This document shows, piece after piece, positions 9,576 through 49,762 of a stretch of 64,000 nt of DNA. The position numbers and the translations under genes are program-made. The notes beneath the pieces were generated by a model that was not told the origin of the DNA, ran no database searches, and saw only the letters and a program-made list of their open reading frames with translations. This DNA comes from Planctomycetota bacterium. GTDB lineage: Bacteria; Planctomycetota; Phycisphaerae; UBA1845; UTPLA1. Where the stretch lies: NCBI GenBank assembly GCA_016235815.1, contig JACRIM010000039.1, positions 1 to 64,000 of the forward strand, in the 5' to 3' direction. Positions within the stretch are counted from its first letter, which is position 1, and the number at the start of each line of letters is the position of its first letter.

Positions 9576-9873
9576 CGTTCGGCGGCTTTCGTACCTCGAC
9601 GGGCAAGAATCAAGCAGTCCCCTCCCCTGGCTGGCGTCGAATCATGCCCTTTTGGCGCTACTGATATCAGCGTTGACCCAACTTCCTGATGCTGGCATGG
9701 CCTCTTCACAGTCCGCCTCTCGACGAATTCTTGCAATCGTTGCAATTGCGACCTAACGCAGGAATCAACCGGCTAACCCCTACGCGCTGGTCCTGGATCG
9801 CAGAATCGGCCGATCTACAGGCGACATCAGGATTTACCCTGATGCCGAGGTCACCGTTGTTCGAGGTTTTGAC

Positions 9874-45956: not shown

Positions 45957-48900
45957 ATGTTCAAAGAAGTCCCCAATCAATTCGACTTTCCCAGGATGGA
46001 GCAGGAAATCCGCGCCTTCTGGGAGGCAAGCAATATCTACGAAAAATCCCTCGCCAATCGCAAGGGCGGAAAACCCTTCGTCTTCTATGAAGGCCCCCCC
46101 ACCGCCAACGGCCTGCCACACCCCGGCCACTGCCTCACCCGCGCCATCAAGGATTTGTTCCCGCGCTTCAAAACCATGACCGGCCACTACGTCCTCCGCA
46201 AAGGCGGCTGGGACACCCACGGCCTTCCTGTCGAAGTCGAAGTCTGCAAGGAACTCGGCATCCACACCAAGGAAGAAATCGAGGCCTACGGCGTCGAGGC
46301 CTTCAACCGCAAATGCCTCGAAAGCGTGTTTCGCTACACGAAGGAATGGGAAGAACTCACCAAGCGCCTCGGCTTCTGGGTGAATCTCGAAGAGGCGTAT
46401 GTCACGTATCACCAAAGATACATAGAGAGCGTCTGGTGGAGTCTCAAACAACTCTTCGACGCCGGCCTCCTTTATCAAGGCCACAAGATCGTCTGGTGGT
46501 GGGCGCAGGGCGGCACGGCGCTCTCCAGCGGCGAAGTCGGCCAAGGCTATCGCGAAGTCGACGACCCATCGGTCTATGTGCGATTTCCGCTCGTCGAGGA
46601 TGACCGCTTCAACGCGTTATTTGCCGGGCACGATCTGAGCCGCGACCGTAAGGAAGCGGGTTCTGCTGATGGAGAAAAGAACCCGCTTGCTGACGCGCGC
46701 GGCTCGGAAAGAGCGTTGCGCGTTTCGCTCCTCGTCTGGACCACCACCCCGTGGACGCTCCCCAGCAACACATTCGCCGCCGTTCGCAAGGATTTCGATT
46801 ACGCCATCGTCCACGACGAAGAAACCGGCGAACGATTGATCTTCGCCGCATCTCTCGTTGAGTCGATCGCAAAGAAAGTAAAGAAGACGGAGAAATGGAA
46901 AGTCGAGCAGACGGTAAAAGGCAGCGCACTCGTCGGCCTCAGCTATCGACCGCCGTTCGACTACTACCGAAAACGCCCTGCAAAAGAAATCGTCCCCCAC
47001 GCCGAGCCGGGCATTCCGCTCGGTGATTACAAACCCGCCCTCACCACCGGCGGCACCGACTACGCCTGCTGGCGAGTCCTCCATGCCGACTTCGTCACGC
47101 TCGACTCCGGCACCGGGCTCGTCCACGAAGCCCCCGCGTTCGGTGAAGTGGACTACAACCTTCTGCAAGAAGAGCGCAAACGATTCAAAAACCCCGACTC
47201 CGTCCCGCTGCTTTGCGCCGTCGCCCCCAACGGCAAATTCACCGACGACGCCCCCGCCTACAAAGGCCGCTTTGTCAAAGAATGCGACAAAGACATCAGC
47301 CGCGACCTCAAAGAGCGCGGCCTGCTCCTGCATCAAGAACAATACCGCCACGACTACCCCTTCTGCTGGCGCGCCGAGGAAGACCCGCTCATCCAATATC
47401 CGCGACGAAGCTGGTTCATCCGCACGACGCAGTTCAAGGACGCCATGCTGGAGAACAACAGCCGCATCAATTGGCTGCCCGACCACATCAAGGAAGGCCG
47501 CTTCGGCAATTTCCTCCGCGACAACGTTGACTGGTCCCTCTCCCGCGAGCGCTACTGGGGAACGCCGCTGCCGATCTGGGTCTGCGACGCCTGCAGCCAC
47601 ATGGAAGCGATCGACTCCTACGACTCCCTCGTCGCCAAGCCCGGCGTGAAGGGACTGGAAGTCTGGGAAAACGCCAAGAAGAAAGAGCCGACCCTCAGCG
47701 ACCACCTAAAGGTCCACAAGCCCTACATCGACGCGATCACCTACGCCTGCCCCAAGTGCGCAGTACCGAGCCGCGACCGTAAGGGAGCGGGTTCAAATTC
47801 CGCCACGACGAACCCGCTTGCTAACGCGCGCGGCTCTGATGCGCGCATGCACCGCGTCCCCGAAGTCATCGACTGTTGGTATGACTCCGGCGCCATGCCC
47901 TTCGCTCAATGGGGCTACCCACACAAGAACGCCGAGATGTTCGCCTCGCAATTCCCCGCCGACTTCATCAGCGAAGCCCTCGACCAGACACGCGGCTGGT
48001 TCTACTCGCTCACCGCCATCAGCACGCTGCTATTCGGAAAGAACGGCGTCGCGGGTGGCATGGGTAAGCGCAGCTTACCCGTGGCGACGCGCGAAGAACC
48101 CACGGGCAAACAGAGTTTGCCCATGCCACCCCAGGACTATCCCCACCCGTTTAAAAACTGCATCGTCCTCGGCCTCCTCATGGGTGAGGACGGCCTGAAG
48201 ATGTCCAAGAGCAAGAAGAACTACAAAGACCCGACCTACATCTTCGATCACGAAGGCGCCGACGCCATGCGCTGGCTCTTCTTCTCCGGCCAGACCCCGT
48301 GGACCAGCATCCGCTTCCAGGAATCCGCCATCGCCGAGGCCCAGCGCGAGTTCCTCATCCGCCTCTACAACTGCTACAGCTTCTTCGTCATCTACGCGAA
48401 CATCGACAAGTGGACACCCAATCCGAGCCGCGACCACACTCAGAGCCGCGACCACACTCAGAGCCGCGACCACACTCAGAGCCGCGACCGTCAGGGAGCG
48501 GGTTCTTCTGGCGACGAAAACAACCCGCTTGCTGACGCGCGCGGCTCGGTTTCCGAACTCGACCGCTGGATCCTCAGCGAACTCGCCCAATGCAGCCTCA
48601 CCGTCCACGATCGCATGGACGAGTACGACAACTACAACGCCGCCAAGTCCCTCATCGCCTTCGTGGACGCCCTCTCCAATTGGTACGTCCGCCGCAGCCG
48701 CGATCGCTTCTGGAAAAGCGGCATGGACGACGACAAGTCCGGCGCCTACGCCACGCTCCACGAGTGCCTCGTCACCGTCGCCAAACTCATCGCCCCCTTC
48801 ACACCCTTCATCGCCGAGTCGATGTATCAGAATCTCGTCCGCACGCACGATGCCGCCGCCCCCGAGAGCATCCATCTTTGCGACTACCCCGTGACCGCCA

Positions 48901-49685
48901 CGACCCGCACCGCTGCACTGTCGCGCGTCGATGCCAAGCTCAACGAAGAGATCGACCTCGTTCGCCAACTCGTCTCCTGCGGCCGCGCGGCCCGAAGCGC
49001 CGCGAAGCTCCGCGTCCGCCAACCCCTGGCCGCCGTGGAACTCTTCCACCGGGCCGCCGACGTCGTGAAGCGCCATGAGGCCGTCATCAAGGACGAGCTG
49101 AATATCAAACGAATCGAGTTCAAAGACTCCGCCGCAATCGCCGAGTACGTCACCTACGACCTCAAGCCCGATTTCAAAAAGATCGGCCCCAAGCACGGCG
49201 CTCTCGCACCGAAGATCAAGGCCGCCCTCGGCGCAATGAAGGACGTCGGCCCGTTGGTGAAGTCGCTGGAACAGTCGGCGACATGCACCATCACCGTCGA
49301 TGGCAAAGAAGTTCAACTCACCACCGACGAAGTCCTCGTCGAACTCCACGCCAAGGAAGGCTACTCCGCCGAGCGAATCCCCGGCCAGGGCATCCTCGTC
49401 CTCAACACCAGCCTCACCCCCGCCCTCATCGATGAAGGCATGGCCCGTGATCTGGTGAATCAAGTTCAGCAGGTGCGTAAAAATCTGAACCTCAAATACG
49501 AGCAACGCATCGACCTCGCCATCACCGGCGACGCCGACATCCAGCGCATCGTGTCCAGCTTCGGCGAATACATCATGGGCGAGACGCTGGCTACAAGCCT
49601 GCTTACTGCTCCCTTACGCGATACTCAGCCAACGGAGGCTGACATCGAAGGCCACGCCGCCCAGGTGTTCGTAAAACCACAATAG
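45957..49685 (+). CDS. ileS: Isoleucyl-tRNA synthetase with in-frame repeat insertions
   Basis: This 1242-residue class I synthetase has an adenylation HIGH-type motif at residues 55-58 (HPGH in PPTANGLPHPGH). The CP1 editing domain occupies about 180-400 and KMSKS is at about 748-752 (GLKMSKSKKN). The tRNA-binding helical domain and the C-terminal domain typical of the eukaryote-like IleRS2 group follow. Four low-complexity insertions encoded by repeats interrupt the chain: residues 228-250 and 605-627 (69-bp element), 700-725 (77-bp palindrome), and 824-864 (three 18-bp units plus the 69-bp element). All keep the frame and fall between conserved blocks, so the enzyme is probably functional. 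IleRS2-type enzymes are often mupirocin-resistant (family knowledge). Confidence 0.95.
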   Translation: MFKEVPNQFDFPRMEQEIRAFWEASNIYEKSLANRKGGKPFVFYEGPPTANGLPHPGHCLTRAIKDLFPRFKTMTGHYVLRKGGWDTHGLPVEVEVCKELGIHTKEEIEAYGVEAFNRKCLESVFRYTKEWEELTKRLGFWVNLEEAYVTYHQRYIESVWWSLKQLFDAGLLYQGHKIVWWWAQGGTALSSGEVGQGYREVDDPSVYVRFPLVEDDRFNALFAGHDLSRDRKEAGSADGEKNPLADARGSERALRVSLLVWTTTPWTLPSNTFAAVRKDFDYAIVHDEETGERLIFAASLVESIAKKVKKTEKWKVEQTVKGSALVGLSYRPPFDYYRKRPAKEIVPHAEPGIPLGDYKPALTTGGTDYACWRVLHADFVTLDSGTGLVHEAPAFGEVDYNLLQEERKRFKNPDSVPLLCAVAPNGKFTDDAPAYKGRFVKECDKDISRDLKERGLLLHQEQYRHDYPFCWRAEEDPLIQYPRRSWFIRTTQFKDAMLENNSRINWLPDHIKEGRFGNFLRDNVDWSLSRERYWGTPLPIWVCDACSHMEAIDSYDSLVAKPGVKGLEVWENAKKKEPTLSDHLKVHKPYIDAITYACPKCAVPSRDRKGAGSNSATTNPLANARGSDARMHRVPEVIDCWYDSGAMPFAQWGYPHKNAEMFASQFPADFISEALDQTRGWFYSLTAISTLLFGKNGVAGGMGKRSLPVATREEPTGKQSLPMPPQDYPHPFKNCIVLGLLMGEDGLKMSKSKKNYKDPTYIFDHEGADAMRWLFFSGQTPWTSIRFQESAIAEAQREFLIRLYNCYSFFVIYANIDKWTPNPSRDHTQSRDHTQSRDHTQSRDRQGAGSSGDENNPLADARGSVSELDRWILSELAQCSLTVHDRMDEYDNYNAAKSLIAFVDALSNWYVRRSRDRFWKSGMDDDKSGAYATLHECLVTVAKLIAPFTPFIAESMYQNLVRTHDAAAPESIHLCDYPVTATTRTAALSRVDAKLNEEIDLVRQLVSCGRAARSAAKLRVRQPLAAVELFHRAADVVKRHEAVIKDELNIKRIEFKDSAAIAEYVTYDLKPDFKKIGPKHGALAPKIKAALGAMKDVGPLVKSLEQSATCTITVDGKEVQLTTDEVLVELHAKEGYSAERIPGQGILVLNTSLTPALIDEGMARDLVNQVQQVRKNLNLKYEQRIDLAITGDADIQRIVSSFGEYIMGETLATSLLTAPLRDTQPTEADIEGHAAQVFVKPQ
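46637..46705. repeat. 69-bp palindromic coding element, copy 1 (in ileS)
   Basis: Outer arms GAGCCGCG and CGCGGCTC and inner arms AGCGGGTT and AACCCGCT surround a variable centre. It encodes SRDRKEAGS, then a variable middle, then NPLADARGS. It lies at the start of the editing-domain region. Confidence 0.9.
47768..47836. repeat. 69-bp palindromic coding element, copy 2 (in ileS)
   Basis: The length and arms match copy 1. It encodes SRDRKGAGS...NPLANARGS. The centre differs from copy 1, while the arms are conserved. It lies between a Cys-containing strand (YACPKCA) and the catalytic-domain block VIDCWYDSGAMPF. Confidence 0.9.
48054..48130. repeat. 77-bp cloverleaf-like palindrome (in ileS)
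   Basis: Outer arms GGTGGCATGGG and CCCATGCCACC enclose two perfect 8-bp hairpins, GGGTAAGC-GCA-GCTTACCC and GGGCAAAC-AGA-GTTTGCCC. CCCGTGG and CCACGGG lie between them. The element is read through in frame (GGMGKRSLPVATREEP...) just before the KMSKS loop. It is unrelated in sequence to the 69-bp element. Confidence 0.85.
48425..48478. repeat. Three tandem 18-bp units (in ileS)
   Basis: GAGCCGCGACCACACTCA is repeated three times without change, encoding SRDHTQ three times. The first 11 bases equal the left arm of the 69-bp element that follows directly. Confidence 0.95.
48479..48547. repeat. 69-bp palindromic coding element, copy 3 (in ileS)
   Basis: It encodes SRDRQGAGS...NPLADARGS. It sits at the junction between the catalytic core and the helical anticodon-binding domain (SELDRWILSELAQ follows). 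Confidence 0.9.
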
Positions 49686-49762
49686 CCACTCACCACGGGA
49701 AGTTTCGACTTTTCGATTTTTCGACGTTTCGACTTTTGCAAAGCAAAGGCGTTCCGACTTTT

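Follow-up and report, generated by a model that had tools for sequence, protein, structure and literature searches.

REP doublets read in frame in a planctomycete isoleucyl-tRNA synthetase gene, and REP-associated transposases embedded in the frames of essential enzymes

The isoleucyl-tRNA synthetase gene (ileS) in the window, by which we mean the whole 64,000-nucleotide stretch of planctomycete DNA analysed here, carries three in-frame 69-bp elements that are REP doublets (REPINs). On the evidence of sequence, we think it probable that they are non-autonomous members of a class-3-like REP/RAYT system whose transposase (RAYT) lives in the alanyl-tRNA synthetase gene (alaS) of the same genome and may have spread them. 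A broader proposal, to which we give even chances, is that several RAYT lineages of the Planctomycetota are protein-resident transposons. Such transposons would lack a start and a stop, be made only inside AlaRS, IleS, ValRS, LeuRS or PurH, retain their nuclease, remain faithful to one host and occupy a few recurrent loop sites; they would resemble inteins without splicing and hold the host frame hostage, and REPINs, including the three in ileS, would be their non-autonomous offspring.

REP doublets in ileS and related arms in the genome

The host is identified as ileS by Pfam (tRNA-synt_1, Anticodon_1 and DUF5915 in a scan of the window frame) and by the NCBIfam ileS model, against which the frame scores 818.7 bits with a cut-off of 621.4. 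Solved IleRS structures are the best matches of the model of this protein, and type 2 enzymes rank first. Against the family of the mupirocin-resistant enzyme MupA the protein scores 802.2 bits, which nearly equals the ileS score and lies below the cut-off of 1900. The features are as follows.

45957-49685, + strand: ileS, isoleucyl-tRNA synthetase, host of the insertions; 1242 aa, KMSKS motif present
46637-46705, + strand: REPIN copy 1; residues 227-250, CnGA foot from 46635, pLDDT below 50 at 240-253
47768-47836, + strand: REPIN copy 2; residues 604-627, pLDDT below 50 at 607-621
48053-48131, + strand: a different 79-bp palindrome, in frame in ileS; residues 699-725, z -5.6, pLDDT below 50 at 701-721
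48425-48478, + strand: 18-bp array of three in-frame units (SRDHTQ), preceding copy 3 and repeating the outer REP-arm foot
48479-48547, + strand: REPIN copy 3; residues 841-864, pLDDT below 50 at 826-862

In REPIN/RAYT systems two inverted REP arms enclose a variable centre, and the transposase is flanked by the same arms. The three 69-bp elements meet the first part of this description, each consisting of two inverted REPs around a short spacer. A preliminary description, made from the letters alone, had claimed three in-frame palindromic copies of this length in ileS, and all three were confirmed at the positions above; their peptides are SRDRKEAGSADGEKNPLADARGS, SRDRKGAGSNSATTNPLANARGS and SRDRQGAGSSGDENNPLADARGS, in that order. 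The 3′ half of the element has three exact matches in the window and one with three mismatches, which is the inverted arm of copy 1, and shuffles lead to an expectation of 0.00. Folded as single-stranded DNA, the three copies reach -24.6 to -28.7 kcal/mol (z -4.6 to -8.1), and no shuffle was equally stable. The AlphaFold model of the protein (residues 1-1200, mean pLDDT 84.4) falls below a pLDDT of 50, in runs of at least three residues, only in the four segments listed, all of which coincide with the four inserts or lie no more than three residues away.

The fourth insert, the palindrome at 48053-48131, was overlooked by the preliminary description; it encodes GMGKRSLPVATREEPTGKQSLPMP, is unrelated in sequence to the three REPINs and can be called REPIN-like by shape only. 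No second copy was present in the 409 kb of the window genome examined, and a search for its pattern over 464 loci matched nothing beyond the palindrome of the window itself, in overlapping copies. Neither of two hand-made patterns designed to find its kin matched the window, one of them being badly spaced so that it misses the palindrome itself.

The arm of the three REPINs belongs to a family that extends across the 4.58-Mb genome (assembly 95.5% complete), where the arm pattern, with up to three mismatches, occurs at 72 places and its reversed control at none. The suggestion that this is a spreading element is thus supported. BLAST with the 69-mer found mostly single arms and a few doublets. 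The foot CnGA is present at 70 of the 72 arms, and TAGA or ACGA at the remaining two; because GA belonged to the search pattern, the test of CnGA is the C two bases ahead of it. Coding signal on both sides (a codon score of at least 7, trained on 23 window ORFs, with a threshold of our own choosing) places 22 of the 72 arms within genes. The SRDR frame is used by 13 of the 16 sense arms among them, and the NPLxxxRGS frame by all six antisense arms; the sense frames are unequally open, the first having a stop if the variable base is A or G. The idea that the element is selected to stay open in one frame therefore survives as a preference and fails as a rule, since the copies in ValRS deviate: the window genome's ValRS holds two REPINs of 68 bp each, the left side of which reads EPRPLGSGFD. 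Other arm-bearing genes named by Pfam include those for KdtA, MgsA/RarA, an MmeI-type methyltransferase, a BadF-type activase, RuvC, a polyketide synthase-like protein and an O-antigen ligase-like protein, and two serine/threonine kinases, named by eye, also hold arms. The MgsA/RarA gene (L243, Pfam MgsA_C) holds a single arm.

RAYTs within the frames of synthetases and PurH

The window genome has ten matches to Y1_Tnp, and one of them (contig C34, 9785-10357) lies between family-A arms. These arms, at 9785, 10299 and 10332, surround the RAYT as expected of a REPIN/RAYT transposase. The domain is in frame within a 1238-aa frame, the remainder of which is alanyl-tRNA synthetase; the frame reads SRARKEAGSFPSRDRQGAGSDGPH, then the RAYT, then NPLPDGRGS, with SRDRQGAGS and NPLPDGRGS as the arm peptides. 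Pfam finds Y1_Tnp flanked by two tRNA-synt_2c stretches, which are the only two such matches in the genome and represent the halves of one alaS, with no second copy of AlaRS, and the RAYT-bearing protein scores 853.8 bits against the NCBIfam alaS model (cut-off 457.05). The 60 codons upstream of the RAYT contain no ATG, although TTG occurs at 33 and GTG at 42; the RAYT has no stop codon of its own, and 670 residues follow in frame. The AlaRS arms are not among the 22 intragenic arms, because the codon score next to the RAYT in alaS is too low to pass the filter.

A RAYT-type transposase, which the preliminary description had proposed to look for, is thus present and bears the same arms, not as a separate gene but embedded in AlaRS. 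Because the same arms and peptides surround it, and because it is the only match in the genome to the AlaRS-type RAYT profile (F1) at E <= 1e-10, we regard it as the likely transposase of the ileS REPINs, although shared sequence is our sole basis for inferring that it acts on the ileS arms. The purH gene of this genome, 18 kb past the window end, holds a second, different RAYT in frame; the scores of this RAYT are below the cut-offs (Pfam Y1_Tnp 20.3 vs 23, NCBIfam REP transposase 75.2 vs 80).

Embedded RAYTs recur in relatives. Our IleS alignment combined the protein of the window genome with 40 stretches, some of them incomplete, that came from 39 relatives. The insertions cluster at few sites, and whole RAYTs occupy sites 227 and 645 in 8 of the 39; aligned full-length proteins range from 1086 to 1634 aa. 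In the longest (L119, genome G029) a long in-frame GSIGVPPVPSAQSP-like array adjoins the embedded RAYT. AlaRS contains a RAYT in 6 of 18 genomes, chosen partly for gaps already apparent; the six RAYTs fall at two sites, one used four times and the other twice. The AlaRS of G029 has two RAYT matches (C11:69577 and 71740) in one 1686-aa frame. Among the 114 genomes of the order, profile F1 gives 78 matches in 52 genomes, 32 of them in frames of at least 400 aa, and the IleS-type profile, F2, gives 44 matches in 32 genomes, 39 of them in frames of at least 481 aa; a long frame by itself is no proof of a host.

Hosts were identified for 48 embedded RAYTs, spread over 41 of the 114 genomes: PurH (20), AlaRS (12), IleS (10), ValRS (4) and LeuRS (2). 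This count leaves out RAYT domains shorter than 90 aa, identical copies and seven long frames without a host among the references. Host sequence is matched on both sides in 42 of the 48 and on the N side only in the other six, five of whose frames reach the contig end; in the IleS case L408 (G065) the frame continues for 186 aa after the RAYT without an IleS match, which may reflect a broken host, an assembly error or a frameshift. By hand tally, a RAYT interrupts PurH near profile position 132 in 26 of the 102 genomes in which PurH was found, and two RAYT clades occupy this position.

Beyond the order, relatives of F2 occur in 45 of 392 genomes of the phylum, the window's own included and at most ten candidates scored per genome. 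They are found by blastp in ValRS (G416, G432) and LeuRS (G438), and by eye in DNA methyltransferase-like hosts; many stand alone. By eye as well, RAYTs are in frame in apparent DNA methyltransferases at L217 (G055), L423 (G105), L424 (G079), L445 and L454, and an F2 RAYT is in frame in an apparent MgsA/RarA at L422 (G025), the gene that has one REP arm in the window genome. Speaking against a universal pattern, none of 80 named IleS loci, mostly from other planctomycete groups, holds a RAYT (80 of 584 relatives; records close to the window genome may be missing).

Stand-alone RAYTs of the same families also exist, and 23 of them were compared with the 48 embedded ones. Of the embedded RAYTs, 4 of 48 have an ATG in the 20 codons upstream, compared with 16 of 23 stand-alone ones; for any start (ATG, GTG or TTG) the figures are 16 of 48 and 21 of 23, and internal initiation is therefore not excluded in those 16 embedded cases. 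A stop follows within 40 codons of the domain in 22 of 23 stand-alone RAYTs vs 3 of 48 embedded ones, all three at contig ends. The catalytic H, H and Y are intact in 47 of the 48 (in L394 an R replaces the first H) and in 21 of the 23. Constraint could be estimated from one close pair only, the PurH proteins of G002 and G013, in which dN/dS is 0.14 for the RAYT, 0.06 and 0.11 for the PurH parts and 1.04 for the downstream spacer (53 codons); constraint is not restricted to the domains, because the upstream spacer (28 codons) gives 0.27 and the PurH linker 0.44. On these grounds the embedded RAYTs look alive, with enzyme activity, expression and mobility remaining inferences.

Within genus g2, a RAYT is present in AlaRS only in G015 of three genomes and in PurH only in G012 of three, a patchiness that we read as turnover. 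RAYT lineage and host gene cluster on the trees, which are quick and have few well-supported branches: F1 requires 8 host changes against a shuffled mean of 22.5, and F2 requires 4 against 15.4. Peptides of the SRDR and GRGS types occur on both sides of 12 of 13 F1a RAYTs; by a somewhat stricter, crude pattern, they flank none of 11 F1b and none of 24 F2 RAYTs.

Known systems and competing explanations

According to a published survey (PMC6006769), class 3 TnpA_Y1 transposases of Planctomycetes have the foot CnGA and the motifs NHVH, Y----Q and W[TA], with YV[VI][AENY]EQ as the consensus of the Y motif and a median length of 178 aa; unexpectedly long proteins were dropped from that survey as fusions or annotation errors. 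The system described here shares NHVH, Y----Q, the CnGA foot, many hairpin copies per genome and the host phylum, and differs in that the gene sits inside AlaRS. In the six aligned AlaRS-embedded RAYTs, that of the window genome included, NHVH, Y146 and Q151 are invariant, and the residue after the aligned W is S in four and T in two. We therefore call the system class-3-like, a fit of motifs and foot except for the S after W in four of the six, made without comparison to the published sequences.

The ileS elements are like REPINs in being doublets with a variable centre, and the AlaRS RAYT is like other RAYTs in lying between the same arms, but here the elements are in essential frames and the transposase has neither its own start nor its own stop. 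Palindromes in frame within genes, tRNA synthetases included, have been described in Rickettsia and other bacteria (PMC10969869, PMC3733652), and our elements resemble the Rickettsia palindromic elements in this respect. RPE-4 and RPE-6 of Rickettsia are CGTC REPs that "apparently lack a dedicated transposase", and the portions of these two reports available to us describe no in-frame transposase. The preliminary description called the ileS elements unrelated in sequence to those of Rickettsia; this holds for the foot, CGTC there and CnGA here, which was the sole feature compared. In-frame palindromes are thus already known. Among the matches listed, preprints and most subscription papers being outside the search, we found no report of an enzyme whose frame contains a RAYT, or of in-frame transposases in essential enzymes.

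IStrons place a mobility enzyme inside a host gene and remove themselves by self-splicing. Inteins with homing endonucleases likewise carry a mobility enzyme in a host gene whose function must persist, and they splice out (PMC3943268). The embedded RAYT is similarly a mobility enzyme in a gene that the host must keep, but Pfam, NCBIfam and Rfam scans found no splicing element. We consider it very improbable that RNA or protein splicing of either kind removes the inserts from the product. Such removal would explain how essential enzymes tolerate inserts of about 170 aa; against it, the frames stay open across the inserts and no intein or Hint family was detected (Pfam scan of seven proteins, NCBIfam scan of four). 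Candidate group I and II introns, IStrons and other known RNAs were rejected, an Rfam gathering search of seven host loci (44,232 bases) giving no match. Less credible still is the view that the inserts are ancient synthetase segments rather than insertions. Extra residues do occur at the same sites in many family members, but many relatives have little or nothing at these sites, what is inserted varies in sequence, and the window element repeats elsewhere in its own genome. The preliminary description had named segments shared at the same sites by orthologous IleS proteins of distant phyla as what would refute insertion. No such result emerged: the 40 IleS stretches of the 39 relatives lack NPLxxxRGS altogether, and G008 alone has an inserted SRDR peptide (SRDRKGA, site 751).

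Two further readings accept the insertions and dispute their meaning. It is unlikely, though not negligibly so, that they are passive junk, with REPs and occasional whole RAYTs landing in tolerant loops, those in frame and free of stops surviving, and the embedded RAYT being dead or incidental. In-frame insertion of the RPE type is already known (PMC10969869, PMC3733652), the inserts lie in segments of low predicted order, and the frame of an essential gene cannot close in any case; the intact catalytic residues in 47 of 48, the constraint on one embedded RAYT (dN/dS 0.14) and the predominance of long frames among F2 matches, which suggests a way of life rather than an accident, weigh on the other side. 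We find it decidedly unlikely that the RAYT domain has been domesticated, that is, recruited by synthetases and PurH for nucleic-acid binding or regulation in the service of the host. Patchy presence in genus g2, the two RAYT clades at one PurH site, the REP-type peptides still flanking 12 of 13 F1a domains and the seeming inclusion of DNA methyltransferases (by eye) among the hosts all argue against recruitment, and the recurrence of sites, the clustering of lineage with host on the quick trees and the constraint in the G002/G013 pair argue for it.

The explanation that we prefer, a transposase resident in AlaRS with REPINs as its offspring, rests on observed sequence, frame, flanks, distribution and constraint in one pair; the rest of its mechanism is inferred. 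The cell would make the transposase solely as a domain in the interior of alanyl-tRNA synthetase, for which there are no expression data. The domain would be an HUH/tyrosine nuclease with REP hairpins of single-stranded DNA as its substrate, for which there are no activity data. The REPINs in ileS, valS and other genes may owe their spread to it, and copies would persist where a loop accommodates the arms as a short, soft peptide; no transposition was observed, nor was a precise pair of empty and filled sites found at the DNA level. Residence in an essential frame would be protective, since any stop or frameshift in the RAYT would destroy the host enzyme too. A plausible route, likewise inferred, starts with the insertion of an arm into a tolerant loop; a form carrying the RAYT would then join or replace that arm, keeping to its phase.

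If this explanation is true, a transposase persists through translation inside an indispensable enzyme, with no splicing to conceal it, which would suggest how low-copy RAYTs persist. It would also show a route by which essential enzymes acquire large loops and domains, and it would offer a testable model for selfish DNA that invades proteins. Length filters and "fusion artefact" rules in surveys may have discarded such proteins.

Short repeats beside REPs

The 18-bp array at 48425-48478 was absent from the preliminary description. The outer foot of the REP is likewise repeated, with a locus-specific spacer, in arrays of about 18 bp at L227 (the end of RuvC), L251 (KdtA), L017 and L026; the in-frame peptides are SRDHTQ in ileS, SRAKNP in ruvC and SRDPNQ in kdtA. 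These arrays point to slippage at the ends of REPs or to repeated rounds of partial copying there. Right after ileS, at 49703-49740, lie tandem TTTCGACTTTTCGA-like repeats, which account for four of the five matches in the window (0.69 expected per window), and runs resembling this tandem adjoin REPs in L010 and L017.
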